Positions 11,770 to 55,392 of a stretch of 64,000 nucleotides of DNA are shown piece by piece. The translations under genes were made by a program, and so were the position numbers. The notes under the pieces were generated by a model. The model was not told the DNA's origin and did no database searches. It saw only the letters and a list, made by a program, of their open reading frames with translations. How positions within the stretch are numbered: the first letter of the stretch is position 1; each line of letters begins with the position of its first letter. This DNA is from Mytilus galloprovincialis (Eukaryota > Mollusca > Bivalvia > Mytilida > Mytilidae): positions 15,092,863 to 15,156,862 of the forward strand of contig NC_134849.1 in NCBI RefSeq assembly GCF_965363235.1, written 5' to 3'.

Positions 11770-14700
11770 ATGGAATGTTGTGATCTAGATCCAATACGGA
11801 TTAAAGGTAAATTATCATATTAACTATTAGATGTATAAAACAAAACGTCGGACTACTATCAGATAAAATAGAAAATGGAAATAGGGAATGTCTCAAATGA
11901 CAACCACCGAATCAAAGAATAAAATACACAGCCGTAAACAATCGGATTCAAATTTTATTAGGGTAAAAAACATGTTCGAATGAGCAAAAATTCAGATTGG
12001 CAATACATACCATATGTAGGTCTTTTAAAAGGAGACAATCTGAATACAGGACAGGAAATAAGGATTGCCACTGGAAAATGATGATATATTGGTTAAGGAC
12101 GAAAAAATAGATGATAAGGTTGAAATGCCGTATGTTGTACTGTCACCATGAATAAAAAAGGGAGGATAAGTCGAGTCAAGTCGCAAAAGAAAAACAATAA
12201 TAACAAACAACTATCCAAAATACATACAATAAATGAATACATACGACATAGACACCACCACACTGAACAGCATAACCTCACTAAAAATCGCGGGTTTGTT
12301 CATGTCGCCCAGAATGGTACCTGCTCCACTATTGCTTATGTAAGTACAAATTATGTGGTGAATTTCACCCAATTATAGTATATTCAAGGCAAAGAGATGG
12401 TGGGTGGTCAATGGTACAAATAAGATACGAAAATTGCCAACCTATATTATATATTTTTTTTTCATTATAGAGCCAACAAGTCGAGTAGTGAAGACTGGAT
12501 ACCTTACTATTTATGAACGTATGTTAAATAAAAAGTTAATTTAGCGGCCGAACTGACAACATTTACAAACCGTTGAACAATGTCATTGAAAATTAATATT
12601 CTGATTAAATATCATACAATGGGGTTTCATTTTAATTGTCCTTGATTGAGTGAAAATTAGTTAGAATTGTGAAAATCAACTAGTGTGCACGTAAGTGACG
12701 TCAAAACACTGTATTACGACGATATATTCCTAAAAATGGTTTCTTTCCTGCAAATGAACATGTTGAACAAAAACATAAGTTATTCACCTAGTAACAAGTA
12801 GACTTTGAAAAATCAGGACATTAACGCTAATATGAGTCTTTAAAACACTGTACTCATTTCCTTGGAGATTGATGTCTAGTGAATTAAATTTACACTCGTC
12901 AATTGACACTAATGCTTAACTTTTTAGTAGATCAAAAAACGTAACAGTAAACTAAGAATTAAAACAAATACACGATGATAACAAAATAGTAAGATGAAAC
13001 CAATGAGCAATTAAAAAACATTCAACCAAAAGGGACAACATTACAATTTTCAGTTCATTATAAACTCGTCATAGATATATGACTTAAATGAGAGCCAGAC
13101 TTGCGTTAAGGCAACTAAAGACACGTCAGGGACGCTCAAATCAATTAATCTGAACAGTACAAAGAAACAAAATACTTAAAACAAAACCTCACATAAAAGT
13201 AGGGATAAGCATTGTAACAGGAGGGTCGGGTGGCTATGCGTCACCGTTCCCTCTTGTCGATTAATGGTTCGTTCCGCTGCGACTGAGCTCTGGCAAATGA
13301 GACCAAATACAGATGATATTCAGATACTTTATTAAAATGTTCCACATAATGTACATGTGAACAGTGAAACTAAAACATAAATTTAGTTAAGTTAAGTTGT
13401 CGGATTAATGATAAACCAATGTAGTAATAAAAGAAAGGCGGATTAATGATAAATCCAGGTTGTCTATTTGAGACCCAGTACAAAAATTTTCTTTAATAAG
13501 TTTATACTTTTCACAAGTCCATTTAAGAAGGTATGAATCTTCTACGAGAATGGCAAAATCTTCTCTTAAATATCCAGTAAGTTGGATGAAACGTCTACCA
13601 AATCATTACCATATTATTTATATTAATATACACTTTGTTATTCCTTTATCTGACAGTGAAATAGTTCATTTTGCGTCATCTCGTATTTAGCAAAGGGAGA
13701 TTATTCCACAGCATCTCCGTTACATTAGTCCCCTCTTAAAACTTGAAATACAGCGCAGCTTTATTTCTAGTTAAACTTTCGAAATAATCTCACACTGGTT
13801 ATCGTCACTTTATACACATTTATCGCCGTCTGTAGCGTGATGAACTTCTTTCACTTGTATGTAGGAGACATTTGATCCCCATGACATGTAAGCTGTGCAT
13901 ACGTAAATGTTTAGCAAGTACACTTGCTGAAATGAGAAAGCAAACTTAAGAAAACTATACTTTAAAGTCAATTCAAACAAAACATATACATAATGTTCAT
14001 ACTGCTTTTAAATTGTTGTACAGCGTTTGTAAATATTCACACAGCTAACCTAGGTACCGATACTATTTTTCCCAAGTCCTATTAACGGCCCCCTTATGGA
14101 AATATAAGCCCTCTGGCACATAGTTGTGGTAGCAGTATGGCTATGCTGCGGCTTTCTTGCTGAAAACTGTTGCGGCTTCGATGCAGCGATAGCATATGTC
14201 GTATGCAAACTAGTTTTCTGGCACCATAATGGCGGCTACATTCTGGCACCATTGCGGCAATATTCTGGCATCATGTTGCGGCACTGATGCGGCTATAGCG
14301 TATTTCGTATGCAAATTAGTTTTCTGGCATTATTGTGGCGCTGTTACGGCTCTAATACGGCTATATTATTGCATCATTTTAGTGACAAAACATGCGAATA
14401 GGCCGTGCTTTGTATAAAATGTATTGCGCCGGCAAAACCAAGTTGTCAATGCATATATATGACATGCATTCATGCATTATAAATTTATATGCACAGGTAC
14501 CTAAAATAAATGTCAGCGGTATCTGCATAAAATATAATGAAAATTTTTAATGTGCCCTAAGTTTAGCAAATAATATTGTGTTATTTACCAAACTACAAGT
14601 ATGCAATTAAACTGCTGCAAGAAAGACCCACAAACTTCACCGATACATGTATAGTGAACTCAGATGAGGCCATGTTATTGAAATACACAATGCAAGATTG

Positions 14701-17700: not shown

Positions 17701-20700
17701 ATATATCAGACTTTATTTATGAAAGAAAATCTTAAGAGCAGAGCATTTTTGTTTTGTTTGTAACTCTATTTTAGAACATGTAATTTAAAATTGTTGAAAT
17801 ATGTTTAAAATTTGTCAAAGTAAGCTTAAGAATTCCTTTTTTTAATTTAGATTTATTATGCATGTCTCTTTACATAGTATGCGACGCGTAACAGTTTATA
17901 AGTAGGTGTTCTCTTATATGCATTTGATACGGTGCATTTATATTTCAGACTTCATTTATGAAAGGAAATCTATAGAGCAGAAATTTAAATTTTTTTTGTA
18001 TTAATTTAAAATGTAGATTCAAATATTTTTCACTTCAAACGATAAACTAAAACTTTTTCAAAACTTACATATGATGTATAGTTCTGCGTCCGCAAAAAAG
18101 AAGCCAAGGAAAGTGTTTATCTCTTCTTCACAATACGCATTTCATTGAATCTCGATATTTATCATGTTTATAATTTTTCTAACAATGACGTTCTACCTTC
18201 GTAAGCCTGCAAATGTCATGGCGGGTCACTTATGAGATCAACCCCCTATTGTTTGTTAAGATTTTTTTCAAAGTTGATTTATTTTTTTATTATATCATGT
18301 TTCATTACTGTTTTGTTATAAGTACGCTAATCGGTATTTAGGCATCCCACCGTTTTATCAGCGTCATATTGAGCCATCCCTATTTACAATACTTTATTTT
18401 AAGAGGGTTACACATTTAGAAAAGCATAACAAAAAATGCAAACATATACATAATATATTTCGAATTATGGAAGTGAAAATAGATTGTTATGCCTTTTACT
18501 TTGTTTTTATGCATTTTAAATATAAGTTCCGTAACTGACGAAAGATATCAAAATTTTAAATGCAAACATTGTATCACAATATAACAAAAACATGGCGCAG
18601 ACTTGTTAAAGAAAGCATTTTCAATGCGTTACTGTGGACTCTCGTCTATTCTATATATTTTGATATTACACAGGAGGATTTTTCGTCAACGGATGGAAAG
18701 ACCGGTATTTTAAATTGTATGCCGACAGCAGTCTTTTATGGTACCATGGAAACAACGATGGGTATCACAAGGGTGGTATAAGGCTAAAGGTAATATTCTT
18801 CCACTTTTGTATGAATATCTTTTTCCAATTATGGAACACCACATACAGTTGTGTATCTGTATTCAAACTTATCATACAATTGTTAAACTTATTTATACTC
18901 ATAAAATTAGATTCTGAACGGACACTTTTGTACAGTATCAATAGAAGGGATACAGTTTTAAAAGTCATAGGAAGATGTGGTCAGAGAGCCAATGAGACAA
19001 CTTTTCATCCAAGTCATGATATTTAAACTTTTACCATCATTATAATCGCTTATGAACCACATAGACAAACGACAACCACTGATCAATAGGTTTCTAAAAT
19101 TTATATATGTACGTGTAAATTTAAAATTTAGCAGTATACCTTTTTACATTTAGGGTTAACCAGGAATAAACTGAAAATCCTAGAGGATACATTGTACTGT
19201 ATATGTTAAACGGAAAGAAAATACTGTCTCTCCTTATTCATTTGTCTTCATACGTATACAAAACATTTAGACAAAGCACTGTTAAGTAGCCACGTTATAT
19301 ATATGTTTTTTTTACAAATTGTTATTATTACAATTAGATAGATAAAATGAACAAACGAACAAGTGAAATTAGACATGTTAAATATTTGTTTAATTGTATA
19401 TCTGAATCCTATTTTGATACTCTCACCCAAGGTGATATTTGCAACCACAAGTAACGTACTATTTGTTACATTTACATGTTTGCAGTTCATGCATGTTCAT
19501 TTGCAATTGAATTTTTAGTAAAAATGCTTAATATTCTAAAACAATTGTCCTCCCACATTATGTTTACTTCCGATATCTTCAATTTCAGTGATCATAATTC
19601 AATTAATGTATTTCTGATCGACATGATTAATACAAGAGATTAACAGATTTAATTAGCGTGAATTTTTAAAATAGTTAAAATAGGAAGTTATTATTTTAAT
19701 TACAATTGAACTTTTTTAAATTAATTTGAGAGTTAAGTTATGTTGATCTGTTATATATATTTGTATCTTATAAACTTCACCAACTTCCGACCGTATAAGT
19801 ATTTTTGAAAAAGTACACTTAAGGTCCAATTACTCATACGGTTTGGAACATATACAATGTCATTTTATAATCATATCAAGCTTTTTGTAATTGATAAATA
19901 TACATCAATAAGTTTAACAGATAACAAAGAGACATAAAACGAAACGAAGGTCATGTGATAAAGCATTTCTGGTCTATATGTTCGACTGATATATTTGAAA
20001 ATTTTCTATGCATTATAGGTTAAGTGAACCCTATCTTAAACAAAACTAATTATAAGATATTTTTTAACTTATTTTCTTTTCGTGCTAGTACTGGAACAGT
20101 TTGTTCTAGTCTTGTCAATATTCAACTCTATTTAAGGTTCATTAGACGATTACAACAATTAAACATATTAGCTAACCTTGTATGGTTAATCAGTTTTCTA
20201 ATTGTTAAGTGTTTATCTATCGATTATACTTTTTCAGATATTCGGCAAATACTCAAGCAAGTTATAAAAAACTTTAGTAATGGGCAGTAACGAGTCAGCT
20301 CACGTTTTCGACTATGTTCACTTATACATAAATCTAGTCTTGTTGGTCAATTTTTTGCTATTAAAAGTTTCCGTTTATCTTTCCGTTTATACAATAATCA
20401 AGATAATATACAAAAATGAAAATAAAATGGTAAAATGTGTCATGGGAAGGTTATAAATCCTATAGTAGTCGTCTAGCTATTTTGATGAAAAAAGACAGCA
20501 GAAAAATCTTATCATTTCGTACATGCATGCCTTTGTCAGATTTTCTGTATTTTTTTAAGCCTTTAAATCAATCGACAAAACTTATATTTTACCTCTATGT
20601 TCTATTTTTAAAATATTGTTAAATTCGATAACCAAATAGTGATTGTGGGTACGTCTAGTTGAATTTAGTTCAATAGTTTCAGAGTACAAGATTTTTGTAA

Positions 20701-23700
20701 GAATAAACGACGACGGACGATGGACTCAATATGACAGGTGAAATATTACCAGTTTGTACCCAAAACGTAATGCCTAAAAACTGGCTTGGCTGATTAAACC
20801 ATCGAAGACTAATAGTCCATCAGCAGCAAAATCGACCTAATACCATCAATTTAAAAATTATTGCTAGACTTTTATTACTTAAAAAATATAAAGCAACTAC
20901 ACGGTAGGTATAGTATCCGGATAGGATCGTGGGATTTCGAGTGATTTGGTCGGGCTTTTTCGAGTGATTTGATTGGGCTTTTTCGATTGAATATCAAAAA
21001 TGTAAACAAACAGACTTGTTTTCTAACAAAACGTGATATAGAAGCTTGAGTTTGATATATAAGGTTATACATGATATGTTAGTATTTGAAATATACAGAT
21101 AGTATCATTCTGACATTGCTTTTCGTTTAAAAAGATAAATTAAAATAGGGACGAAAGATACCAAAGAGACAGTCAAACTCATAAATCTAAAACAAACTGA
21201 CAACGCCATGGCTAAAAATGAAAAAGACAAACAGAAAAACAGTAGTACACATGACACAACATAAAAAACTAAAGAATAAACAACACAAACCCCACCAAAA
21301 ACTAGGGGTGATCTCAGGTGCTCCGGAAGGGTAAGCAGATCCTGCTCCACATGCGGCACCCGTCGTGTTGCTTATGTGATAACAAATCCGGCAAATAGTC
21401 TAATTCGGTAGGTCACATTCAGGAAAGGGAAGGGGATTGTAGTTACGACGTAAAGAACATATCCGATATCATTTGTGATACGGTTATTCCATAACGGTCA
21501 ACCAACTCGTGATGGCGTCCGTAAAATGTACGAAGGGATGATTTCAACTTCACCATTTGGAACTCTTGGTTTAATAGCTTCCTTGTGAGCAGCAACCCCC
21601 TATCAAGAAAATCATGATAGGAAATGCAAGCACGGGAATATCGTATCAATTGGGAGATATATACCCCGTATGCAGGTGCTGCTGGAATGTTGCTACTTCG
21701 AAATGGAAAGTTCACACTTGGATTTTTTTGTTTGAATCAGAGTGGTCCTTTACAAAGTAGGATTTATCCCTCCCTAAGACAAGATACTTGTATCTACGTT
21801 GGCCATTCTTTTTTACGAAGCAAAGCAATACCAACTCTTTCAATTTGTCTTTTAGTTTGGAATGTGGAATACTAGTGTACAGAGTAGAAAAGTCAAATGT
21901 TTTAATACTGTTACAAGATGAAAGAGAGTTAGATTGTATGTACTCTAAAAGATCTTTGGAATTTTTAACTATCCACATCTGATTCACGCCCCCTCTAGAA
22001 TAGGCAGTTTCACAATAACTTTGAAGCCCGTCTTTGATTGCTGATACAATGGATGTTAATAATTTAGAAAGAGGTTTCGTGGAGCACTTGGAAGACCCAG
22101 CAATATACCGTTGTTTATAAGGACACTTATGTAGTTTAGGTATCCAATACAATGATGGCAGATCTAGTTCTTCATTTTTGGTTGAAATCCCAAAGGAACA
22201 CAGAACAGACCTATGATTATCCAGGATTTCCTCTTTGGTAAGTGTCGTGAGTGTATATGTTGAGTTTCCAAGTGAATTGTCAATACCTAATTCGTTTATC
22301 AAGCAGTTAATGTAATGAGTTTTACATACAAAAACGATGTTGTTTGGGGCTTTATCTGCGGGGACAACAACATATTTGTCATGGAAGTAGGATAGGTGTT
22401 TTGCAACATTTGGGTCTTTAAAGATTGACGTAGCATGGGCATTGATAGACCCATTCAGTTTCTTAATTCTGATTTGTATCAACGACCTCACTGCCTTAAT
22501 CCATTCGGAAAGAGTGTCTACGTCCTCCTTCTCGCGCTTAGCCCATTGCCTGGCATAATCCTCAACTGAATCCATCAAAATTTTAAAGTTGAATTTCCAA
22601 TTGATGGATTTAGGCTCATGATATTTCGGACCTTTCGATAACACATTTCGTAGAGAAGTGTTATTAACAATGTTGAGGTCACCGGTAATAACGTGGCCAG
22701 CGGGATTATATGTGAATTGGGAATTAGCACAAGTGCAATCGGGAGGTTTAGACTTGAAGTCGTCCATATCGAGATCCTGCAAAACGTGTTTGTAATTGAA
22801 AATTTTAGTTGCAATAGGTTTGGTAAAATGCTTTTATTTCAAAATACCGAAGAAAGCCATTTTCTTACACATACAAATGCAAATGTCGACGGAAATGCAT
22901 ACATGGAATCTATGTATCCTTGGATATACAGACACTTTACAAAAACTATTGTTATTGCATTGAAAACGACATTTTGAGACTAAATTCAGTTTTTCATGTC
23001 CGCGCTTTTTCGAAAGTAGTCCGGGTTTTTCAAGTGTGTCCTTCTTTTATCGAGTGATTGTACACATTTCTAATAGCTAAAAATGTTATGTGTTTACGAA
23101 ATAAAGGCTCAAATTAAGTACTTTCAAGGCAAATGGTGTATCAACACTTGCATTTTATCATGAAACAAGTATCGTTCATTTGTATATATTCTTTTTCTCA
23201 CATCTTATAAATTGCATAAACAGTATTTATCCGTGATGTCAACAATCTATTGTGAGTGTTCCGGACCATATAAGTATTTGAATCTCATGGGATAACTATT
23301 ACTGAACAGCAAAATGTCGACTTGGAAAATAACTTCCAAAAATGTCTTAATGAACTGTTAAACAAGAGTTCAACTGTTTTTCTAACTGACAAAAAAAGTC
23401 GATATGATAAAGAGTCTAATAATTGATACTAGAGACGGCCAGAAAACAGATACACACAGATTAAGACAATTGATTGAAAGACAATGGGTTTCAACTTGTA
23501 ACTTGTGCTGTTTTGAATAGCCTTTGAACTATAAAATTCATACATTTCACTTAACCGTCATTGTTATAGATAAGTTTATTGTATTATTGAATCGTTTCTA
23601 ATGTATACATATATGGTCCCAAATTGGGTTTCCCCTTGGGCAATTATTTGTTTCGCCACCTCTTTCGAAAAAAACAATATGTAACATAAATATATCTTTC

Positions 23701-33800: not shown

Positions 33801-34640
33801 GATTTTGTAGTAAGGGAACGGCATTTTAACTTCAAGGTTTTTATCTATAAAAAAAATCTGATCCCTAATTTGATTGAAAAAACTATTTCTGTTCAAATAG
33901 ATGACCTAAAAATATTCTGAATCTAGATTTTTTTAATACCAATAAGTATTAAATTTTGAAAAACAAACCATTATTTCTGACTGAGACACAAAACATAAAC
34001 CCCATTCTTTTTGAAGTTAGATAGTTGGTCCCTCAACATCGGGTTTGTTTTATTATATGATGATGTGATATTTTATCATTGTGATACATTTCAATTGAAA
34101 ACAAAATAACTTTATGTATTTCATGTACTTGGTATATACTTTCGATATAAATTTTAACAGTAAATATTATGCAGGATCAATGTATTATTTTCCTTATATA
34201 CTACGTTTCCTATCGCGTCTGATCTATTTGCCTGTTGTCAGTTTACAAATTGAATAAAATTCTGCATAAAAATTGCGTCACATCAAAATCAAAGCGAATG
34301 ACTAATTTTATTTTAGCGCCTGAGAGATCTAAAAACTCATGTGATTTGTGTAACAATTAAATACGGGTCCTTTTTAGAGTATATGTTTGCTATTTAGGAT
34401 TTCAATGCAATACCTATTTTATTTGTGATTGAATGTTATTTTACAAATGTTTTATATTGTCTTATTCTTGTATAGTATGTTAATTCCAAATACATATTTT
34501 TTTATTTCAATGTAATTATACACGTATAATTTACATATCTTTCATCATTTTATTAATGTTTTGTACAAACTGTTATTTGAATGTTCATAGCATAGGAAAT
34601 GTAAGATACTCTTTACACAATGTTAATGTGTAATTGTCGT
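33801..34640 (+). other. Gene A 3' UTR and downstream spacer
   Basis: No further coding. A canonical AATAAA lies at 34253-34258, about 450 nt after the stop. The actual polyadenylation site is unknown. Confidence 0.4.
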
Positions 34641-34646
34641 CTAATA

Positions 34647-35965
34647 AAATTGAGAATGGAAATGGGGAATGTGTCAAAGAGACAACAACCCGCCCATATA
34701 AAAAACAACAGCAGAGGGTCACCAACAGGTCTTCAATGTAGCGAGAAATTCCCGCACCCGGAGGCGTCCTTTAGCTGGCCCCTAAACAAATATATACTAG
34801 TCCAGTGATAATGAACGCCATACTAATTTCCAAATTGTACACAAGAAACTAAAATTAAAATAATACAAGACTAACAAAGGCCAGAGGCTCCTGACTTGGG
34901 ACAGTCGCAAAAATGCGGCGGGGTTAAACATGTTTGTGATATCTCAACCCTCCCCCTATACCTCTAACCAATGTAGTAAAGTAAACGCTTAACAATACGC
35001 ACATTAAAATTCAGTTCAAGAGAAATCCGAGTCTGATGTCAGAAGATGTAACCAAAGAAAATAAACAAAATGACAATAATACATAAATAACAACAGACTA
35101 CTAGCAGTTAACTGACATGCCAGCTCCAGACTTCAACTAAACTGACTGAAAGATTATGATTTCATCATATGAACATCAGGCACAATCCTTCCCGTTAGGG
35201 GTTTAGTATCATACCATCATAACATATATGAGAAGAACATAACCCGTGTCATGCCAACAACTGTTTTTAGAATAAATGTGTTTAGTTCCGATGCAAAGAC
35301 CTTATCAGTGACTCAATATTAACGCCAAAATATGCAATCTTTAATGACTTGACAACAGTATCGTAATTATATCCCTTCTTAATAAGTCTATTCATAGGTT
35401 TTGTAAGTTTCTGAGGTGAATACTGACACCTTTGTGCTTTAAAAAGAATATTACCATAAAAAATTGGATGTGAAATACCTGAACGTATTAGAAGTCTGCA
35501 TGTTGAGCTATATTTACGAATGATGTCTTTATACCGATGATAAACTTTAGTAAATGTTTTGACTAGTTTGTGATATCGAAAACCCTGGTGTAATAATTTT
35601 TCAGTAATACATGAATTTCTCTCGTTAAAATCTAAAACATTGTTACATACACGAGCGAATCGTACAAGTTGAGATATATAAACACCGTAAGATGGTGACA
35701 AGGGAACGTCACCATCTAAAAACGGATAATTAACGATAGGAAATGAAAAATCATCCCTTTTATCATAAATTTTAGTATTCAGCTTTCCATTAGTGATATA
35801 GATATCAAGATCGAGAAAAGGGCAGTGGTCATTGTTAGTATTAGCTTTATTTAAAGTAAGTTCAACAGGATAAATTTCATTAATATACATACTGAAGTCG
35901 TCATTATTGAGAGCCAAAATATCATCCAAATATCTAAAAGTATTATTAAACTTACTTAAAGTCAT
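34647..35965 (-). mobile_element. Penelope-like family B: RT C-terminal fragment plus 3' tail
   Basis: A 227-codon frame (35965 to 35282) starts near FRYLDDILALNN, the catalytic YxDD region, and continues with HCPFLDLDIYIT, KIYDKRDDF, YGVYISQLVRFARVC and the thumb region. It is 5'-truncated: palm motifs upstream of YLDD are missing. The stop is followed directly by the non-coding tail (35270-34647) ending GACACATTCCCCATTTCC...CTCAATTTTA in element orientation. This links the abundant tail-only repeats to a Penelope element. No endonuclease domain is seen. Confidence 0.8.
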
Positions 35966-36616
35966 GTGTTACTTTATAAAATGGTTACATATTTCTGAGT
36001 ATTATTTTTTTTCATTGTTATTATGATCATGAGATTCAAAGGATATATAAGTATATGGATGCTTTATTACTATTTAAAAGTATGTTGGGGTGTTTGTTTT
36101 CGAGGGAGACATGAATTATGACAATGTTCACATGCGGTTGTGGTGTTTTAATAGGGTAGTGTGATGAATAACATAAATGGTACCAATAGGTATGCACAGA
36201 TGTCCTATCAATGTCCTGTCAATGTCCTTTTAGTGATGCTCGATTCAAAGTATTTGAAAATACAAAGATGTTTAAAACGATGAAGAATGATAAACCGAAA
36301 ACGACAACAAATTATAGTCAAAGTCGGGCAAGGAATCATAGCTTTAAATGAGGGAGAGATATATATACATTCCAGAATTCAAATAATTTCCGAAATTTTG
36401 TAACTTTGAATAACATTAAATCAAGTCAGTACATAGGAGGCATGTAATGTGAGTTACAAGGTATATATAAATTTATTTTCTTATCTTTTTATTTTCCCTT
36501 AACATCTGAAAATGGAGAAGAAACAAACAATTCACTTATCTATATATTCTATATACACATAAAATAGATCTTCTGGAATAAATTGCATATTCTTGTTCAT
36601 TTTATAAGTATAAAAA

Positions 36617-36805
36617 AGAAGATGTGGTATGATTGCCAAGAGACAACTGTACACACGAGTCCAAAATGACACAGAAATTAACAACTATAGGTCACCGTAC
36701 GGCCTTCAACAATGAGCAAAGCCCATACCGCATACTCAGCTATATTAAAGTCCCTGAAATGACAATGTAAAACAATTCAAACGAGAAAACTAACGGCCTA
36801 ATTTA
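36617..36805 (-). repeat. Interspersed repeat, type a
   Basis: It is the reverse complement of the 8503-8705 repeat: AAGATGTGGTATGATTGCC to GAGAAAACTAACGGCC. Confidence 0.7.
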
Positions 36806-37006
36806 TATAAAAAAGGTTCGTTTAAATTCTAATGTTCTATTACAACTTAGACTGAATACATCAACGACCGTGCAATGGAGAGGATCTATAGTCGTAACAT
36901 TTATCTGCATGTGTTTATGTGTATGATCCTAGAAAAAAATGTAACTAAACAGTTTAAGCTTTGTATAGTTTTGTTTCTCGCATGTGTATATATATGTTAG
37001 CGGCAA

Positions 37007-37262
37007 ATCAGGAGCCTCTGGCCTTTTTTTAGTCTTGTATTATTTTTAATTTTAGTTTCTTGTGTATAATTTGGAGTTTAGTACGACGTCCATTATCACT
37101 GAACTAGTTAAGATGTTTGTTTAGGGGCCAGCCGAAGGACGCCTCCGGGTGCGGGAGTTTCGCGCTGCATTGAAGACCTATGGGTGACCTTCTGCTGTTG
37201 TCTGTTCTATGGTAGGGTTGTTATCCCTTTGACACATTCTCCATTTCCATTCTCAATTTTAA
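37007..37262 (+). mobile_element. Penelope family B tail-only copy
   Basis: It runs from ATCAGGAGCCTCTGGCC through GGGGCCAGCCGAAGGACGCC to CCATTTCCATTCTCAATTTT and is a close match to the tail at 34647-35265. It is a 5'-truncated insertion about 520 bp upstream of the gene B start codon. Confidence 0.75.
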
Positions 37263-37785
37263 TAAGTGAAATAAGCATTAAGCTTAAATCCTAGGCAATA
37301 GGCTGACGCATAGGCAGCAGGTCTATTGCTACAATAGTGTTAGGCATTAATCTTAGATCCTGAAAAATGTGTCCAGGCTTAGATCCTGGAAAATGTGTCC
37401 AGGCATTCAATATGCCTAAAATGTAAATGAGGTTAAATATATTATCAAGATCAAATTAGAGTTATCTTTCGTAATACATTGACTGACTCGCTGCAAATTG
37501 TTTTTGTATGGTACAATTGAGAATTATACACCTAAATGTCACAGTGATGTGTGCGTTGAATAAGTGATGATGTCAACAACATATGATCATATAGTATAAG
37601 TCAGGTGAGAAACATGGGCTTGTTGAATCCGTTTGGTAAAAACCACATACATGTATATATGTGTGTGTTGAAACATTAACTTTACGACAATAATTCTATT
37701 TATAAATTCCGGTTTATAATATTTACAATATTGTATGTTAAATTTGACAATTACTTAACACAACGGATTTCCTAATCATATACAA

Positions 37786-40700
37786 ATGGATTGTTTTCTT
37801 TGTCGTCGTCCAAAAATGATAAGAATTAAAAGTAAGTTTTTTAATAACTTAGTATAAGTTAGTCGATAACTCTTTATAATCAGATAAACATGAAACAATC
37901 TCTGTTAGAAAAAAAAATAACTTAGTTTAACTAAAATTAAAGTGCATCAACGATGTCAACATCATGAAAATATCACCGTTTTGTAAACTGCGTCATAAGT
38001 AAAGTGTTTGACAGATCGATCTGTGTAACAACTTACAAGGTTGATCTTATAAATGCATTGTTTCTGTTTTAAGATGTTGTATCGTGTGATTGATTGATTG
38101 ATTGGTGTTTAAAGCCACTTCAGGACTATTGTGCTATTTTTTGGCGGTCAGTTATTATTTCAAGATGGCAAGAGTTTCCAGGGAGAACTATCGATAATCG
38201 GTACGAAAACGAGATAGCTGAAGTGTCCAGGAAGAACTATCGATAACCGGTACGAAAACGAGATAGCTGGAGTGTCCAGGAAGAACTATCCATAATCGGA
38301 ACTAAAACGAGATAGCTTGAGTGTCCAGGGAGAACTATCCATAATCGGAACGAAAACGAGATAGCTGGAGTGTCCAGGGAGAACTATCGGTAATCGGAAA
38401 GAAAACGAGATGGATAGAGTGGTCAGGGAGAAATATCGATAATCGGTACGAAAACGAGATAGCTTGAGTGTCCAGGAAGAACTATCAATAATCGGTACGA
38501 AAATGAGATAACTAGAGTTTCCAGGGAGAACCATCCATAATCGTAACGAAAACGAGATACCTGGAGTGTCCAGGGAGAACTATCGAAAATCGGAACGAAA
38601 ACGAGATGGCTAGAGTTTCCAGGGAAAACTATCGATAATCAGTGCTAAAACGAGATAGATGGAGTGTCCAGGAAGAACTATCGATAATCGGTACGAAAAC
38701 GAGATAGCCGGCGTGTCCAGGGAGAACTATCAATAATCGGTACGAAATCTTACAATCCCAGTCAATATAGGTTACCGATGATCACACCTGCCATGTGTAG
38801 GATTCCAACGCACCCCTCATTGTTGACACGCAAGTGATACTCTAATTATAGTGGGACTACTAAGACTTCTCTGACACTGCGGGATTCTGCATCATATGAA
38901 TGAGACAACTGTTCAATAAAGCCCATGGATAAAAATGTAGACAGATATGCAAATTCTGTGAGGCATTCAACCTGAACAAAACTCATATTATATAGTAGCT
39001 TAATTCAATTATTCAAGTTATTCAATTCTCTATCATAATCTTAATTCAGTTAAGATGATAGGAATAAGCTGGAATGAACGAGCATCGTAAGGGATTTGTT
39101 CCAGAAGAGAGGCAAAAGATACCAGAGGGACAGCTCATAGATAAAAAAAAAACTGACAACGCCATGGCTAAAAAATAAAAAGACAAACAGACAAATAATA
39201 TTATACAAGACACAACATGGTTAAACTAAAGACTAAGCAACACGAACCCCACCAAAAACTAGGGATGATCTCAGGTTCACCTTTTCATAAACAAATACTG
39301 GTATACTGAAGGGAAAACAACTAAGTTTGCCGTTCGATTAGTGAGGGTTTAATTATAACCCACCATTTTCTTCGGAAATTACTTAACTAAGTTAGAAATA
39401 TGACAGTTGTCCATTTGTTGAAATGGTAGATAAAGTCGTTTGATTGTGTCAGTTTGTATGGACTTTCTCTTTCTACTTTTTCCCAAAAAGGACAAGGTGT
39501 GTTTACAAAGAATGAAAAAAATATAGATCACATAAATCAATGTTAATAGTTATCAAAGGTACCAGGCTTAAAATTTGATATGCCAGAAGCGCGTTTCATT
39601 AACATTGTATATAAGACTCGTCAGTGACGCTCAGATCAAAATAGTTAGAAAGCCAAACAAGTATAAAGTTGAACAGCATCGATGACACAAAATTCCAATA
39701 CATTGTGCCAAATACGGCTAAGGTAATCTATTCCTAGGATAAGAAAATATTTAGTATTTCGAATAATTCATACTTCTGAAAACAGTAAATTTATAAAATG
39801 ACCATATCAATGATATAATCATATTCATGTCAACACCGAAGTGATAACTACTAGGCTGTAAATACCCTCGGGAACGAAACGTCCATCAGCAGTGGCATCG
39901 ACTCAGTGGTGAAAATAGTTTTCAACCAATTGATAACTATTCGCTGCTTAGGATAGTCACATAAAGATTAAGATGGAGTTATGTGTAACCTATTAAACTC
40001 CAACCTCTGCTTTATCTGGAACCGTGATGTAAACACAACATATTAATTGGAACTAGCTTGTCTCCTCAGATTGGCACTTAGACCAAAAAACAAATACCAA
40101 CAAAAAACACAGTGCAATTTTACAAGTTGCTATGCCGGCTCATCCGGTTTGCAACATCAATTTGGTAGGCAACTGTTTCCGATGTTTTATGGAATAAAAA
40201 TTTAACACTTTACCTTGGGCGAGGTCATCTAATTTTGGTTCTAAACAGTTAGGTAATGTCCAGTGTCAAATATGTATTTTATGTATATTAAGGAAGACAA
40301 ATGAACAATATGTCCAGTGGCAGGTTCTGCATAGTTGTAAGAAGTCCTATAAAAGGTAAAACGTTTTGGATCGACGCTGCAAGAACGGAATATTGCAGAA
40401 ATGTTGCCTACATACAAGCTACGCATGTTTCTACTAATCCCTTAAAGAGTTTCTAACATTCTGAAAACGTCGATCTCGACTCACATGTGACATCAAATTT
40501 GACGTCATCAACTTGTTGACTAACGTACATCCAACAAAAGTCAAGGAGATGCCCCTTAAGAGTGTGTTCTGCTTTTGGCAGGCGAGGTCGACATAACATA
40601 CCAACTAATGCGTTAGGTTTATATTTTTAACATTTCAACAATATTTGTTTAGATATTTTCCACATGTTAATCAATATGTATGTTGTTTATAGAACCAAAC

Positions 40701-43700
40701 GCACGAGTGGTCAAAAAAGGTTACCTGAAGATTTATGAACGTATGTATCTTTGTGTAGTACGTATGTATCTTTGTGTATTACGTATGTATATTTGTGTAG
40801 TACATAAACAAAAGTGAAATTGTATGTAATATTGTTTAGCACGTATGAAACATAGTGTTGTACCTTTGTACCTTTGTGTAGTTTTAAAACATGTACATGT
40901 ATGTGTGTGAATCAGTTAAAGAAGAGCAGAGGGTTCAACATTGAAATGAGATAATTAACTATCATAAGTCGAAACAAAGTACGATAAACAATGGCGAAAC
41001 AAAACACGATTAGCACGTAAAGAAAACTTAATTTTGAGGAAGACAAATCCCTACAAAAACTGGGGCTTAACTCAGCTAGTGCTTCGAAAGGGTGATCAGT
41101 TCATTGAACAATTTTTATAAAGTGAAAATGAGTGAAATTGATTGAAAAAGATTGAAAAAGAAAATACGTTTGTTTAAAAAGAAATGCGTTCACATAAATC
41201 TTTCGGTGAACTTTTAAATGCAGTGATAGTTATCGCGTTTTCCCTAATTTTTGCTCTGACTTCTTCCCATGAAATCGTCTATTTTCAAAAATGCGTCACA
41301 AAGTAAGTTTATATTTCTGAATCTGTTATAAAGCGAGAAATGATCTACCTTCCTGGTGGTCAAAACCACAATGGAAAAACTTTGCAACAAATTATTTCAA
41401 AATAAATACACACAATATATTTTATTATTTGACCGAGAGTTCTGTTCAATGAAAATTTATACACTACACACAAACTGTAAATGTTGACGTATCTAAATGT
41501 TTAGCTGTTTACAAGCAAAGCATAGCTCCAAATAACGTTGGGCTCAAATGTTTCGGTAGGGTCTGCAAGAGATACTCTTTTTGTTACCCGTTCGGAATTA
41601 GGGTAATTAGTCTCTATGCATCGATCATTGAGTGGCTAAAGAAACAATACCAACATAACCGTAAACTTCATTGATGACCACACGAAACGCGATTCTGACG
41701 TACAAAACGTTATTCTTTTATCTATGCTGAGTTTATTCCTTCAAAAAGAGCAAGGTTCTTTTGATTTTCTACGCGATGACAAAAACAATTTTCATCAACG
41801 AATTCATATTCTTTTGAAAACTCTTTGCGTTCTGTATTAGCTATAGGTAACACACCACTAAACATAGTTTGATAGGCTATTATTAGTTAGGCAAAGAGAT
41901 TTGGGAAAGCATGTATTATGAGATCACCCCTAGTTTTTTGGTGGGGTGCGTGTTGTTTATTCTTTAGTTTTCTATGTTGTGTCGTGTGTGCTGTTGTTTG
42001 TTTGTCTTTTTCGTTTTTAGCCATGGCGTTGTCAGTTTGTTTTAAATTTATGAGTTTGACTGTCCCTTTGGTATCTTTCGTCCCTCTTTTTTGAAGTTAT
42101 GAAAATTAAGATAAATTGGGAAAACACTATTAGAAAGAAAATAACGACATAATGGTATATGTCGGAAAATGCATTGCTCTAAAACAGAATTATCCTTGTT
42201 TTAATAGTTATCAAAGGTCCCAGGCTTATAATTTTATACGATCTCGAGGATGAAACGTTCACCAGCAGTGGCATCGACCCAGTGGTGTAAATAGTTATGA
42301 AAGGTCTACATAATAATCATCGGTGATGCTCAGATTCAAAAAGTTTGAAAGCCAAAACAAGTACAAAGTTAAAGATCATGGAGGACCAGAAATTCCAAAA
42401 CGTTGTGCCAATTACAGCTAACTAAATGTAATCTATGCCTGGGATAAGAACATCCTTATTATTTCGAATAATTCATACTTTTCCAAACAGTAAATTCATA
42501 AATATGACCATATACTTGATATTCATGTCAACACCGAAGTGCTGACTACTGGGCTGGTGATACCCTTGGGTACGAAACGTCCAACAGCAGTGGCATCGAC
42601 CAAGTGGTGTAAATTCTAATCAATGGTACCAGGCCTATTTTATGTACTTGTATATGAAATGCACACGCAACTCTCGATATGCTGTTGAGAGATGTTGTCA
42701 TTTAAGCTTAGTTGTCTTTTATTTTATTTATAGGGAGCATATAATTATACATGTTATGAATAAAACTACTAATAAATTTTTAATATTTTCTCCCTTCAAA
42801 CTTACTTTTAAGTCTTTATTTGCATTAGAAGTAGATGTGGATGCTATAGACGAAATTCCAGATTATTTCCTGATATTCATTGCTCTGAATCCCCTTTTTG
42901 TATTATTTTAAAGGAGGGTGTTTATATGATGGATGGAACTCGCGATTCTTTGTGTTATTTGAGGACAGTAGTTTATTATGGTATGAAAACCAAAATAGTT
43001 ACCATCACAATGGAGGCATCAAATTAAAGGTAAATCTAGAAACAGGCAATTGCTTAATCTTGCTTTTCGGTAAAAAAATAATTGATTTACAACATGTAGT
43101 ATATATCTGTAATTGATGATGCATGACAACATTTCACGTGCATTCAAGTGAAATTCCGTCTTGTAATGTTAAACCACGTCTCATGTATATTGCTATCAAA
43201 ACAAGAAGTTGACATGTACACAGTTTAAGCCTGACTGACAGTGGTGCAACCAACAAGACATCTACATTTGTACTTTGAACATGCAAATATACAAGATGGC
43301 ACATTTTATTTGAAAAGCATGGTCAAATGCAAGGTCAATTTTTTTTTTTATGTTTCGCTTTTAGTCATAATACTGACCATTGATTGTCCATTCTTTTTAT
43401 ATTTGGTGATAATAACAGTATGTTATGGCGTTTAATAAATTACTAAAAATATGCACTTTTTGTTGAGATTTCTTATCTTATCAAATTAAGTACTTCTAAA
43501 ATAGTTGGAGGAATATATTTATTTATCTAACTATTTCTCTCCATTCTAGATGGTTGCTAATTTTATGGCGGTTGGCCCAATGTGCCTTCATACAAGTAAA
43601 CTCCCAAAACTTCCGAACGGTAAACAGGTAGTTCATCTCATGGGAATACCAAATATATTCAAGAGGGGAACCAGAAAAGAAAACATTAATATGAACTGGA

Positions 43701-46700
43701 TTTTATTTGATGGAGGTGATGAAGATATGAAGTGAGTGTATGAATCTTTGTCGTATCCTAAGGGAGCTACCATTTGATTTTTAGGGGGGGGGGGGGGGGG
43801 GGGCTAGGATGAAATTTGAAAAAATAGGCAGGACATGAGTTTTGAGTTAAAAAAAAAGGCAGGATGAGCATCTTGGCAAAAAAAAAAGGCAGGATGACAA
43901 TTTGGGTAAAAAAAGTCAGGATAAACTAGTAAAAAAAAAGGCAGGATCGAATAGAGTAAAAAATAAAAAGGCAGGACAGAGATTACAACTAAAAAAAAGC
44001 AGGACAAAATTTTTCATCCTAGCCCCCCCCCCCCCCCCCCCCATAAAAATCAAATGGTAGCTCCCTAAGGGGCGGATCCAGCAATTTTCATAAGTGGGGG
44101 CACTGATTGCCGAAAAGGGGGCCCGCTCCGGTCATGCTTCAGTCATTCCCTGTATAATTAACACAATTTTCCCAGAAAAGGGGGGTGGGGGCTGGACACC
44201 ATCCCCCTCTTAATCCGCCAAAGTGGGATGTATTGTGACATATAATATCTAGAATGTTGATACAAATGAAGACATTCTACGATTAATAAAAAAAAATGTG
44301 AATGACATATGTTTAGGACAACACACACAGGATTCTACTATAAGCAATTGTTTGTTAAAAATATGAAGCTCTAAATGAATCGAAACAATTTTATTTATAC
44401 TACGTAAAAAGTAAAATCACAAAAATACTGAACTACAATTAATAATAATAATAATTATTATATTGTTGGAAGCAACTCAAAGTAATATAATGAGAAGCGG
44501 TTCTCGGATTTTGAAAATTCGGAAGTTGTTCTTGCAAAGAGCAATATCAGTCTTTCCGGATTTCCTAATTATTTACTGTGGTCCTACGTGTCGATTTGCA
44601 AACGGTTAAAACCATAGTATTATACATGTACATTATTAGAAACTTTTCTAGAATGAGTTCGACCGGCTTTCTGCAATAATTAAAGAATTTTGTACCAATC
44701 AAAATTGTCGTTTGAGTTGCTGCACGGGTGAAGGTGTATAATTCAAAAGCCCACTAGTCTATGATGTAACTGAGTGTGCTGCAGATGGCATGAAACACAA
44801 TCGATCAATCGACCAACCAAATGCTTGACAATGATACATCTATATTATTTATGTGTAAATATTTAGAATTTGACAGTATTTGCTCAAGTCTCTGACCGTT
44901 ATATTTACTTACAGGGCGTGGTTAGAAGCTATTAAAGTAACTGTAAGTAACAATATATTTTCTCTGAAGTTTGAAATATCAACATTTATATTCGATTTTA
45001 TAAACGAGATTTTTAATCACGAGTATTTAAACAAAATTTGAATAAGCATAATCAATTGCATCTGGATTACATTAATATAATCACGCTGTTCGGTTTGTGC
45101 TTTGGACGTTTAAGAATTGTGCATACCATATTTCAAATTATTATTGTACATATTTGTTAATACTCATTTTGTGTTCGTGTCGTATTTCGTATGTTGTTGC
45201 TAGTGGGTTTTTTGTGATTTTTTTGGGAAGGGGAAGGGTTTTTTTTTTTAATCTTCCAAGACTTAACTTGAAAAAGGTTTGAACATAATTTTGATATCTA
45301 TATATAAAGTAAAATCACAAAACTACTGAACTTAGGGGACAATCAATTCGGAAAGTCTATAATCCTTAGCAAAATCAAATAACAAAACGCATCAAAAACG
45401 AAAGGACAAGAACTGTCATATAAAGACAACTTTGGATGATGTTTTCTGGTAATTTCTGTCAAACATTTACAGCAGTTTCTCTTTGGTCACATACAGTATC
45501 GCATTCGTCGACGATACAAGGAAACTATAGGCTCTAAAGAGCCTGTGTCGCTCACCTTGGTCTATGTAAATATTAAACAAAGGAAGCAGATGGATTCATG
45601 ACAAAATTGTATTTGGTGATGGTGATGTGTTTGTACGTCTTACTTTACTGAACATTCTTGCTGCTTACAGTTATCTCTATCTATAATGAACTTGGCCCAG
45701 TAGTTTCAGTGGAAAATGTTAGTAAAAATTTACAAATTTTATAAAAATTGTTAAAAATTGACTATAAAGGACAATAACTCCTTAGGGGGTCAATTGACCT
45801 TTTCAGTCATGTTGACTTATTTGTAAATCTTACTTTGCTGTACATTATTGCTGTTTAAAGTTTATCTCTATCTATAATAATATTCAAGGTAATAACCCAA
45901 AACAGTAAAATTTCCTTAAAATTACCAATTTAGGGGCAGCAACCCAACAACGGGTTGTCCGATTCATCTGAAAATTTCAGGGCAGATATATTTTGACCTG
46001 TTAACAATTTTACCCTAGTGCTCTAAATGCTTTGGTTTTTGAGTTATAAGCCAAAAACTGCATTTTACCCCTATGTTCTATTTTTAGCCATGGCGGCCAT
46101 CTTGGTTGGTTGGCCGGGTCACCGGACACATTTTTTAAATTAGATACCCCAATGATGATTGTGGCCAAGTTTGGTATAATTTGGCCCAGTAGTTTCAGAG
46201 GAGAAGATTTTTGTAAAAGTTAACGACGACGGACGACGGACGACGACGGGCAACAGACGACGGACGCAAAGTGATGGGAAAAGCTCACTTGGCCCTGTGG
46301 GCCAGGTGAGCTAAAAAAGGAAGATATCATTACAAAATCAGCCAAGACTATGTATGTGCACGCTATCGACGTACATTACAAAATCAGCCAAGACTAGGTA
46401 TGTGCACGCTATCGACGTACATTACAAAATCAGCCAAGACTAGGTATGTGCACGCTATCGACGTACATTACAAAATCAGCCAAGACTCGGTATGTGCACG
46501 CTATCGACGTACATTAAAAAATCAGCCAAGACTCGGTATGTGCACGCTATCGACGTACATTACAAAATCAGCCAAGACTAGGTATGTGCACGCTATCGAC
46601 GTACATTACAAAATCAGCCAAGACTAGGTATGTGCATGTTATCGACGTACATTACAAAATCAGCCAAGACTAGGTATGTACACGTTATCGACGTACATTA

Positions 46701-49700
46701 CAAAACCAGCCAAGACTAGGTATGTGCACGCTATCGACGTACATTACAAAATCAGCCAAGACTAGGTATGTGCACGCTATCGACGTATATAATCAGCCAA
46801 GACTAGGTATGTGCACGCTATCGACGTCATTACAAAATCAGCCAAGACTAGGTATGTGCACGGTATCGACGTACATACATTATCATTACAAAATCAGCCA
46901 AGACTAGGTATGTGCACGGTATCGACGTACATACATTATCATTACAAAAATCAGCCAAGACTAGGTATGTGCACGCTGTCGACGTACATACATTATCATT
47001 ACAAAATCAGCCAAGACTAGGTATGTGCACGCTATCGACGTACATACATTATCACTACAAAATCAGCCAAGACTAGGTATGTGCACGGTATCGACGTACA
47101 TACATTATCATTACAAAATCAGCCAAGACTAGGTATGCGCACGGTATCGACGTACATACATTATCATTACAAAATCAGCCAAGACTAGGTATGTGCACGG
47201 TATCGACGTACATACATTATCATTACAAAATCAGCCAAGACTAGGTATGCGCACGGTATCGACGTACATACATTATCATTACAAAATCAGCCAAGACTAG
47301 GTATGTGCACGCTATCGACGTACATACATTATCATTACAAAATCAGCCAAGACTAGGTATGTGCACGCTATCGACGTACATAAACTGCCTTTCCATAAAA
47401 TCAAAAGACGAAAACCAATTAAAAATCATTTATCAAGTCTTACAATTATTTCAGTTGTAAAATTCTTTTCAAATCACAGACACAATTTCAGTCGAACGTG
47501 TAAGTTCTGCATAAAACGTACCGACAGCTGACAAACACAAATCTTGCAGGAAAGATTCAAAAAAGATTTGGACACTTTGAGTGAGAGGCACAAATATATG
47601 ACGTTTAATTTACTTTTTTCTCTGTAGCTTCCTCCGCCTCCTCCTAGACCGGCTCGTCCTTATCCCCCTAACAACAATGTACAACCAACTGCACCAACTC
47701 CACCCTACAATGTCACGAATTGTAAGTATGACAAACGATAGCAGGTACATCTTGATGTCGAATGGAGAATGGAAAAGGGGAATGTGTCACACAACAACAC
47801 AACCGAAGAGCACAAAAACAGCCAAAAACCACCGATGCCGATTGGTTTTGAACACAGTGAAAAAAATCATGTATCCGGAAAATTTAAAATAGTGTGTACA
47901 GTCATACATTATTTCGTTTATTAATTTACTCTTCAATTACATTTACTCTATTAAGTATTCGCTACTTTAGAATAGGAAGCTTGCATTCAGGTAATATTCC
48001 TGCATTTCTATAAATATATAGAGCTACTAAATACGTCAAAAAATACATAAAAGATCCAAGCAGACGTTCTTCTTTGAAACTTTTTTGTATACAAGAAGGT
48101 CTGATGTATACAAGAAGATGTGGATGGGGTTTACAGAATAAAGAATAATAGCAAGAAAAATACGAAGGGAGAACATTAATCAAAAAAAAAAAACAGGGAT
48201 GCAAAGAAAAAAGAATAATGAGGGAAAATAAAAGAATTATTAGCTATTTTGATATTGGCAACAGAGAGGAATGATGTACAGAATAAAATTATTTAATTAC
48301 CGAAAAATGTAATTGTAAAATCAATTTCAAGAGAAATTTATAGAATTATAGAATAAGCGTTATTATGAAAGATAAAGAAAAATGTCCTAAGATTTAAAGG
48401 ACTACTTATAACTGTTATGAGGGTATGAATGGGAAGTAATTATACGTTGATGAAAAATAAAACTTGTTTTTAAATGTTCTGTTGGAGTTATCTCTCTTCG
48501 TTGTTATATCCACATCATACCATAGACAAAGCATGGTGCTGTTAAGTCAAATACAATGACTATTATTTCTTCTTTGTCTAAAAAAAGCTTCTTAATAAAT
48601 TCAAACAACGTCTAACTTTTCAGCTGTTTATACAATGAACTCCATTTTTTTCAAATAATCTCAAACTTTTTAGTTGCATATATCAAACACTATTTTTTTT
48701 CAGACCATCCTCCAAATGAGACCTTCCCTCTTATTGAAAAAGTTCTTACTTTTTAGCTGCATATATCAAACACTAATATTTTTGTGTTGTTTCAGACCAT
48801 CCTCCAAATGAGGCCGCCCCTCTGATTGTACACACACATAATACATACGGTGGTGGTGATTCAAGCTTGGCCACAGGTAACATAACATTGGTGGCATAAG
48901 ATTCTGATATGTAGTGATGATCATGAAATTATTTATGGAGAACTGTCAGAACTGTCACTTTATTCCGACGAGAATGATTTACATATATACCCTCATAATG
49001 ATTTCCAAGCATTGAAGACTGGAGAAAACGATCAAATAAAAAATGAAACATAAATCCAACCCTCGACATGAAATATGTATACTGTAGATCACTACTATTC
49101 GTGTTCTTTAATACTGATTGTGTTTTTTTAAATATACATGCTAGCTATACCCTATTGTAAAAACTATTTTTATATGCATTTGGTATCCTTACACAAATAG
49201 TTCGAAGAAATATGGAGGTAAATTACAGTCTTCAAAAATAATCAGGTTTCAATTAATATATTCAAGTCCTAAAAGTTTTAACGAGTTATGCTTTTAACAA
49301 AAACTATCGGAAACCGCTGACTTACAAAATTCTCCAAAGTAAAATTATTCCGGCATTACAATAGACAGCCGCTTACATGTACGAAGTTTCCTACTTTGGA
49401 TATGTGTTTCTGTCTAGAATTCAGCACAGCATTTTTATAAAGATGACTTCTTTAAATATACGATTACGACTAAAACTTTTACGGTTTGCTCACGTATATC
49501 AGTATCCAGGTAATAATGATACCTCCTCTCCTTATATTTGTTTACTAATATAGCGTAGTGTTTAATTTTCAGGAATGCTTGTTGGAGCTGCAATAGGATA
49601 TGGCCTTGGTGGTTTTGGACCAGGTATGGGGTGGGACTGGGGTTGGGGATGGGGACCAAATCCCTACAGTGGTTACTGGGGAGGTTGGGATGAAGGTGGC

Positions 49701-50048
49701 ACCGTTGATATAGATTACGCTGACTATGACTTCGGTGACAACATGGATTATGGGTATGCTGACAGTGATATTGGTGAATTTGAAGATGGTGATTTTGGTG
49801 GTGACGACGGTGGTTTTTATGGTGGTGATGGTGAGGGCTATACTAATGACTATGGCGGTGGTTACAACGATAGTTTTACTGGTGCGGATGGTGGAGGATA
49901 TGACGGTGATTATGGCGGTGGTGACGGCAGTGGTTTCGCCGGTAATGAAGATGGCGGTTATGCTGATAACTATGCTGGAGGTGATGACGGTGGTGGTGAT
50001 TATGGAGGGGATGGCGGTGGATGCGGAGGAGGATGCGGGGGAGATTAG
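37786..50048 (+). CDS. Gene B: PH-domain protein with Pro-rich linker and Gly/Asp/Tyr-rich tail (8 exons)
   Basis: Coding exons: 37786-37831, 40693-40740, 42914-43029, 43550-43731, 44915-44942, 47628-47721, 48796-48876, 49573-50048 (TAG). They total 1071 nt, 356 aa. Intron phases are 1,1,0,2,0,1,1, identical to gene A. The PH domain spans about residues 23-138: KKGYL, WNSRFF (W39-F44), SLLWY, then AWLEAIK with Trp133. The linker (141-171) is proline-rich, starting LPPPPPRPARPYPP, which could bind SH3 or WW domains (inference). Exon 8 begins with a hydrophobic glycine block, then DWGWGWGPNPY, then an acidic Gly/Asp/Tyr run ending in two cysteines. ATG context is CAAATGG. Relative to A, the residue after the strand-3 Trp is Asn rather than Lys, so lipid affinity may differ. 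It lies 4 kb downstream of A in the same orientation, as expected for a tandem duplicate. Confidence 0.85.
38165..38752. repeat. Minisatellite, 49-bp unit, 12 copies, gene B intron 1
   Basis: The unit contains GAGTGTCCAGGGAGAACTAT followed by CGATAATCGGTACGAAAACG. Units start every 49 bp from about 38172 to 38716 with scattered substitutions. Confidence 0.88.
39100..39276 (-). mobile_element. Penelope family A tail fragment
   Basis: AAAGATACCAGAGGGACAG, AACTGACAACGCCATGGC and CACCAAAAACTAGGGATGAT match the family-A 3' tail. It lies in gene B intron 1. A diverged relic with the same landmarks is at 40920-41100. Confidence 0.6.
39545..39920. mobile_element. Hammerhead-like (retrozyme-like) repeat, copy 1
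   Basis: It starts AATAGTTATCAAAGGTACC and ends in a module with TACCCTCGGGAACGAAACGT, GCAGTGGCATCGACTCAGT and AATAGTT, returning to the start sequence. The body shares GTGCCAAATACGGCTAAGG, ATTCATACTT and CATGTCAACACCGAAGTG with copy 2 at 42215-42640. On the - strand near 39592-39624 there is a CTGACGAG...GAAAC string. Confidence 0.55.
41918..42095 (+). mobile_element. Penelope family A tail fragment
   Basis: It runs from GAGATCACCCCTAG to GTATCTTTCGTCCCTC plus a T-run, ending where the family ends in the copy at 460-887. It lies in gene B intron 2. Confidence 0.65.
42215..42640. mobile_element. Hammerhead-like (retrozyme-like) repeat, copy 2 with duplicated end module
   Basis: The end module (GAAACGTYCAMCAGCAGTGG then CATCGACC) is present at both ends, at 42241-42295 and 42546-42612, flanking a body like copy 1. 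The right module can fold as helix I (ACUGGG with a CCCAGU-type partner), core CUGGUGA, helix II UACCC/GGGUA, CGAAAC and a helix III hairpin CCAC...GUGG before AUC. It is the direct-repeat layout of retrozymes, but core positions are imperfect. Confidence 0.5.
43757..44070. mobile_element. Foldback element with poly-G/poly-C in its arms
   Basis: The arms read CCTAAGGGAGCTACCATTTG, ATTTTTA, a G-run of about 20, then CTAGGATGAAAT, with the inverse at the right end including a C-run. The interior repeats AAAAAGGCAGGAT-like units. It lies in gene B intron 4, 26 bp after exon 4. Confidence 0.75.
44070..44222. mobile_element. Small MITE-like element
   Basis: GGCGGATCCAGCAATTTTC at the left and CTTAATCCGCC at the right give short inverted ends around a G-rich interior. 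It abuts the poly-G foldback. Family unknown. Confidence 0.4.
45538..46316 (+). mobile_element. Bivalve interspersed element with hairpin at each end, gene B intron 5
   Basis: The left end has GGCTCTAAAGAGCC then TGTCGCTCACC; the right end has AGCTCACTTGGCCC-TGT-GGGCCAGGTGAGCTAA, a near-perfect hairpin followed by CTAA. The interior carries twice TACTTTRCTG..TTATCTCTATCTATAAT. I recognise this as a common non-coding repeat of bivalves. A 3' hairpin followed by CTRR is reminiscent of Helitron ends, which is inference only. Confidence 0.65.
46320..47385. repeat. Minisatellite, 46-bp then 56-bp unit, 21 copies, gene B intron 5
   Basis: The core AATCAGCCAAGACTAGGTAT plus GTGCACGCTATCGACGTACA recurs 21 times. 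Copies up to about 46850 have a 46-bp period. Most later copies add CATACATTAT, giving 56 bp, and many of those carry CACGGTATC in place of CACGCTATC. The long open frames here follow the period and are not genes. Confidence 0.92.
48671..48760 (+). repeat. Duplicated acceptor and start of gene B exon 7
   Basis: TTTTTAGTTGCATATATC, CAAACACT, a T-run and CAG/ACCATCCTCCAAATGAG occur here and again about 90 bp downstream at the real exon 7. The upstream copy encodes HPPNETFPLIEK in the same phase but lacks a good donor. It looks like a local tandem duplication that made a decoy or alternative 3' splice site. Confidence 0.6.
48900..49560. other. Gene B intron 7; no feature recognised
   Basis: Ordinary AT-rich intron ending in the TTTAATTTTCAG acceptor. 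Confidence 0.5.
49573..50048 (+). CDS. Gene B exon 8: GWGWGWGPNPY block and Gly/Asp/Tyr-rich tail
   Basis: The acceptor TTTTCAG precedes the exon and the phase joins exon 7 as a Gly codon. It starts with MLVGAAIGYGLGG, a hydrophobic Gly-rich segment that may embed in a membrane or self-associate. DWGWGWGPNPYSGYWGGW follows, then about 110 residues dominated by Gly, Asp and Tyr in loose GGDGGGY-like repeats, ending CGGGCGGD. The acidic low-complexity tail is probably disordered. Homology to gene A exon 8 is clear only in the first 40 or so residues. Confidence 0.85.
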
Positions 50049-55342: not shown

Positions 55343-55392
55343 TGTGAAGTTAATCAAACGTAGGTTTCAAACATTCAAACAAATGATATGAC

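Follow-up and report, generated by a model that had tools for sequence, protein, structure and literature searches.

What are the two genes that lie one behind the other in a 64,000-nucleotide (nt) stretch of the Mytilus galloprovincialis genome (NC_134849.1, positions 15,092,863 to 15,156,862 of the forward strand; hereafter the window), each coding for a PH domain followed by a tail rich in glycine and tryptophan? A preliminary description of the locus could not assign them to any named protein family. We propose that both belong to a set of roughly ten mussel duplicates encoding an intracellular membrane adaptor of evectin-like (PLEKHB-like) kind, a reading to which we give a probability of roughly 0.5. 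The order of parts from the PH domain to the glycine-zipper segment and a colinear match of gene 2 behind the PH domain point to the evectins without proving membership; evectin-like is therefore a reading of the sequences at about even odds and not a classification.

Searching the genome that contains the window (1.385 Gb, 331 contigs) at the protein level (E ≤10; match counts are lower bounds) gave at least 35 matches, 34 of which fall in two clusters, at C12 15.01-15.15 Mb (19) and C3 71.52-71.86 Mb (15). Exon-by-exon search resolved five gene copies on C12, named A, B (minus strand), C, D (gene 1) and E (gene 2), and an array of five on C3 (C3-1 to C3-5), so that ten members were located in total. 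The tandem pair reported initially is thus real as two adjacent genes, but it does not stand alone. Matches above the cut-off to Myticin-prepro, a family of Mytilus and related mussels, number 17 in this genome and were absent from all 14 control genomes, which makes a mytilid mussel very probable as its source.

Exon structure of the gene pair

Both genes are read on the forward strand (+). In gene 1, exon 1 (11770-11806) encodes MECCDLDPIRIK and has a matching exon in copies A, B and C; its paired cysteines near the N-terminus are S-acylation-like. The PH domain starts in exon 2 (12471-12518) and continues through exon 3 (18674-18789), which contains GWKDRYFKLY, exon 4 (27188-27366) with the MVANFIAVGPMCLH block and exon 5 (27926-27953), which encodes the C-terminal PH part AWLQAIKPT. 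Exon 6 (30879-31221) carries the motif LPSPPSRP and then a linker holding an in-frame minisatellite (30897-31157; 42-nt unit, 6.2 copies) with units of the RPEHPHHSINGHQV type. Exon 7 (32266-32328) encodes further linker, and exon 8 (33292-33800, including the stop codon) runs from a glycine-rich segment through GWGWGWGPNPY to an end rich in Asp, Gly and Cys.

Gene 2 is built in the same manner. Exon 1 (37786-37831) encodes MDCFLCRRPKMIRIK, exon 2 (40693-40740) the start of the PH domain, exons 3 (42914-43029) and 4 (43550-43731) further parts of it and exon 5 (44915-44942) its C-terminal part. Exon 6 (47628-47721) encodes the proline-rich linker LPPPPPRPARPYPP. Exon 7 (48796-48876) ends in GGGDSSLAT, which aligns with NDSDLAL of the evectin-2 reference sequence, and exon 8 (49573-50048, including the stop codon) encodes the glycine-zipper-like segment GMLVGAAIGYGLGG, then GWDWGWGWGPNPY and a Gly/Asp/Tyr tail. 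The start of exon 7, including the acceptor region, is copied in a tandem duplication (48665-48736 and 48748-48828), whose upstream copy has no obvious donor by eye.

All 14 introns have GT-AG borders and the reading frames are open throughout, giving proteins of 440 (gene 1) and 356 (gene 2) residues that are identical at 96 of 175 positions in the best local alignment. The common orientation, the eight exons each, the exon sizes in the PH part (48, 116, 179 or 182, and 28 nt) and the intron phases (1,1,0,2,0,1,1) given in the preliminary description were reproduced in both genes, and the architecture of PH domain, low-complexity linker and Gly/Trp tail was borne out. The tail sequence GWGWGWGPNPY itself is exact in gene 1, while gene 2 has GWDWGWGWGPNPY and the C3 copies have GWGYGWGWGPHPY; a degenerate tail pattern had a single exact match genome-wide, in gene 1. 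We regard the exon calls of both genes as confirmed, with splicing deduced from the sequence.

Order of parts and likeness to evectins

The PH domain passed the Pfam cut-off (PF00169, 25.1 bits) in gene 1 (27.3 bits, profile positions 1-102 of 105) and gene 2 (25.9 bits, 1-101); the other Pfam matches of the two proteins at E ≤1 were solely weak, sub-cut-off PH models. In nine members (the broken copy C was left out) 63 of 136 columns of the PH region, among them those of LPxPPxRP, are shared. W and R of W-x-x-R-[YF]-F, the PH signature, are invariant, the residue following W being K in four of the nine, and the MVAN..AvGPMCLH block is nearly invariant. Directly behind the PH domain, the columns of LPxPPxRP are invariant in all nine members; the remainder of exon 6 is variable and the linker length differs strongly from copy to copy. 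LPxPPxRP fits an SH3-ligand-like motif, and PxxPxR, an SH3 ligand class, is present in A, B, D and E. Exon 6 of all five C3 copies contains PPPY. The N-termini read MDCC (A), MEFC (B), MECC (C and D) and MDCFLC (E), a likeness to the S-acylated N-termini of proteins like PSD-95 and GAP-43. The linker is succeeded by a glycine-zipper-like segment and the Trp/Gly block, and the protein closes with an acidic stretch rich in Gly and Cys.

This order recalls evectin-1 and evectin-2 (PLEKHB1 and PLEKHB2), which likewise combine an N-terminal PH domain and a proline-rich linker with a glycine-zipper segment, found behind DSxLA in gene 2; the PPPY of evectin-2 is carried by the C3 copies. The evectin-2 PH domain is reported to bind phosphatidylserine and to place the protein on recycling endosomes, with a predicted C-terminal transmembrane anchor and a predicted cytosolic N-terminal part (PMC8740049). 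PPPY at Pro129 of evectin-2 is reported to be required for binding of the Nedd4-type ligases Itch, WWP1 and WWP2 (PMC5665887). In the mussel family the position paired by eye with Lys20 of evectin-2, of interest for phosphatidylserine binding, is occupied by Lys in A, B, D and C3-1, by Asn in gene 2 and by Gln in C3-2 to C3-5.

The evectin-2 reference was a provisional human sequence, which limits all alignment scores against it. The region of gene 2 behind the PH domain scored 74 in alignment, a value that 2 of 2000 shuffled sequences attained, as did 1 of 2000 after local shuffling; for copy A the respective numbers were 46 and 101 of 2000. Pairwise BLASTP, with only four sequences compared, placed two pieces of gene 2 colinearly on evectin-2, the PH domain (E 4.8e-4) and the C-terminal segment (E 0.02). 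Gene 2 and the evectin-2 reference share the ungapped colinear stretch DSxLAxGMLxGAA at matching position.

Several observations weigh against an evectin origin. The likeness was first spotted by eye, which makes the shuffle test post hoc, and five members were tried. Behind the PH domain no significant match to evectin-2 was obtained for C3-1 (259 of 2000 shuffles, 486 of 2000 local; computed with R in place of P at the exon 6-7 junction), D (477 and 799) or B (551 and 798). Genes 1 and 2 as well as A and B have no PPxY motif behind the PH domain. When the family PH alignment was searched against PDB sequences, the PLEKHB2 chain 3aj4 scored 20.0 bits (profile positions 7-70), below myosin X (26.1), SBF1 (23.0), AKT2 (22.1) and pleckstrin-2 (22.0), and slightly below AKT1, KIAA0053 and PLEKHA6; the PH sequence alone is ambiguous and gives evectin no preference over other families. 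Hydrophobicity of the glycine segment is weak: the best 19-residue Kyte-Doolittle means were 1.34 (gene 2), 0.96 (A), 0.70 (gene 1), 0.62 (B) and 0.42 (C3-1), all five below that of evectin-2 (1.66). Moreover, the mussel proteins add a long Trp/Gly/Asp/Cys tail past this segment, where evectin ends at its anchor; exon 8 runs about 144 (gene 2) or 155 (gene 1) residues beyond its first 14. The C12 copies also differ from evectin in their Cys-bearing N-terminal extension.

The genome search with the evectin-2 reference (E ≤10) returned three matches, none of them family members, and the exact pattern GMLAGAATG, used to look for a canonical evectin elsewhere in the genome, had no match. The best of the three (E 0.063) was discarded as a canonical evectin candidate; its open reading frame reads as another PH domain, presumably MPRIP-like. 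The region of gene 2 behind the PH domain, used as a genome query, gave three matches, all to gene 2 itself.

These findings make a different origin quite possible, namely a PH adaptor family that arose independently in mussels or bivalves, in which an ordinary PH domain acquired a newly evolved Gly/Trp tail and the evectin likeness would be convergence of proline- and glycine-rich low-complexity sequence. PLEKHB2 is not the closest PH domain by sequence in PDB, the resemblance behind the PH domain exceeded most shuffles in two of the five members tested only, and the family is missing from the genome matches of the evectin-2 reference at E ≤10. Such convergence would, however, have to account for the ungapped DSxLAxGMLxGAA at matching position in gene 2.

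Other known systems share single parts with the family. The PH domains of myosin X, AKT, SBF1, pleckstrin-2 and PLEKHA proteins have the W-x-x-R-[YF]-F signature and score similarly or better in PDB, but for most of them the match covers no more than roughly the first third of the profile (for PLEKHA7 it is nearly complete), and the remainder of these proteins is of other kinds. The GW repeats of GW182/TNRC6 and the plant glycine-rich XYPPX proteins show a similar Trp/Gly low complexity and a proline-tyrosine linker beside a glycine zipper, respectively; in contrast, the mussel GW block is single and compact instead of being spread over repeats, and genes 1 and 2 had no Pfam match to GW-repeat or XYPPX-type families at E ≤1. 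A description of the family was not found in the open-licence literature, an absence that is no proof of novelty.

Duplication, decay and selection

The eight-exon layout with the same phases could also be built in copies A and B, exon 7 of copy A being the sole candidate from a splice-site scan. On C3, exons 2-6 and 8 were seen in all five copies. An exon 7 candidate was found in C3-1, the sole C3 copy whose DNA was fetched across that region, and upstream of C3-1 no exon 1 candidate passed the filters used. Copy C (C12:15062071-15068822) is considered broken because exon-by-exon search did not find its exon 2, exon 8 contains a stop and no GT follows exon 5. Together with an exon-8 fragment carrying stops at C12:15073841, it documents decay inside the C12 cluster. 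A decayed intronless match on C5 (5933701-5933808, minus strand; 44 of 63 nt, protein match E 0.206 genome-wide) spans exons 2 and 3 of gene 2; it is possibly a processed pseudogene and lends weak support to the junction between these exons.

Nonsynonymous (dN) and synonymous (dS) substitution rates were estimated by the Nei-Gojobori method for 36 pairs among the nine members without copy C; many dS values exceed 1.5, so the ratios are rough. Between gene 1 and gene 2, dN and dS were 0.275 and 1.93 in PH exons 2-5 and 0.42 and 1.38 in the tail exon. For the PH exons, dN/dS was 0.05-0.22 in the 21 pairs with defined dS between A, B, D, E and the C3 group, and five pairs (gene 2 with the C3 copies) were saturated. 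For the tail exon, it was 0.12-0.43 in 20 such pairs and 0.62 for B and D, with five pairs (A with the C3 copies) saturated; C3-1 compared with the other C3 copies gave 0.08-0.13. PH and tail exons are thus under purifying selection between the older copies, with dN/dS below 1 wherever computable. The ten pairs inside the C3 array differ by 3 to 23 changes in the PH exons; apart from one pair with an undefined ratio, their PH dN/dS lies between 0.12 and 1.78, and this young array shows little sign of PH constraint so far. The lengths of exon 6 in different copies (343, 94, 91, 217 and 139 nt) all differ by multiples of three, which together with the selection pattern supports the frames of exons 6-8. 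Likewise, the conserved exons and phases and the low dN/dS in PH and tail exons support the exon calls of the gene pair independently of RNA.

A glycine-rich structural or secreted protein of the shell, byssus or mucus matrix type, in which the PH-like part would be incidental, might be suspected from the long Gly/Asp/Cys tail in a mussel genome. We consider this improbable, as the N-termini (MDCC, MECC, MDCFLC) are, judged by eye, unlike signal peptides and every older pair with defined dS shows constraint on the PH exons, which fits a working intracellular domain. That the genes are decaying or non-functional duplicates is most improbable: the defects of copy C, the exon-8 fragment and the PH dN/dS of C3-1 with the other C3 copies (0.40-0.71), of C3-4 with C3-5 (0.76, 4 changes) and of C3-3 with C3-5 (1.78, 8 changes) are in line with it, but genes 1 and 2 have uninterrupted reading frames and standard splice sites, and the PH ratios between A, B, D, E and the C3 group are low.

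The window also contains open reading frames that look like reverse transcriptases, two within gene 1 introns (21712-22833, minus; 28602-29842, plus) and one in the space separating the genes (35282-35968, minus). We take them to be Penelope-like; four pieces of them had no Pfam match at E ≤0.01. Large minisatellite arrays, their units roughly 35-56 bp long, lie at 38172-38747, 46328-47382, 55066-55343, 59702-59945 and 60718-61140.

A putative membrane adaptor with a new tail

The evectin-like reading suggests how these proteins could work. The PH domain would tether the protein to the cytosolic side of a membrane, and the cysteines at the extreme N-terminus, possibly S-acylated, may help this attachment. 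The invariant LPxPPxRP could recruit a partner with an SH3 domain, and in the C3 copies PPPY may bind ligases with WW domains, like its evectin-2 counterpart. The glycine-zipper segment, predicted to anchor evectin and most fully retained in gene 2, would continue into the Trp/Gly/Tyr stretch and the long Gly/Asp/Cys tail. At the membrane surface this tail might drive self-association and so generate a membrane-bound scaffold. If the analogy with evectin-2 holds, the mussel proteins would act as adaptors close to the membrane, and their tail would be what is new. The membrane-binding scaffold put forward in the preliminary description is plausible and is the leading reading here, although we infer it. 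A more far-reaching version, in which the evectin anchor was rebuilt in about ten copies as a polymerising Trp/Gly/Cys tail, yielding a self-associating, membrane-tethered scaffold that couples a reader of acidic lipids to SH3 and WW partners, appears doubtful to us.

With this reading, an unassigned gene family gains a testable ancestry, and the gene pair takes its place in a two-cluster family showing birth and decay. The family offers a readily testable design that joins a putative lipid-binding PH domain and an invariant SH3-ligand-like motif with a selectively constrained Trp/Gly tail. If self-association of the tail holds true, these mussel proteins would represent a compact natural membrane-bound scaffold.

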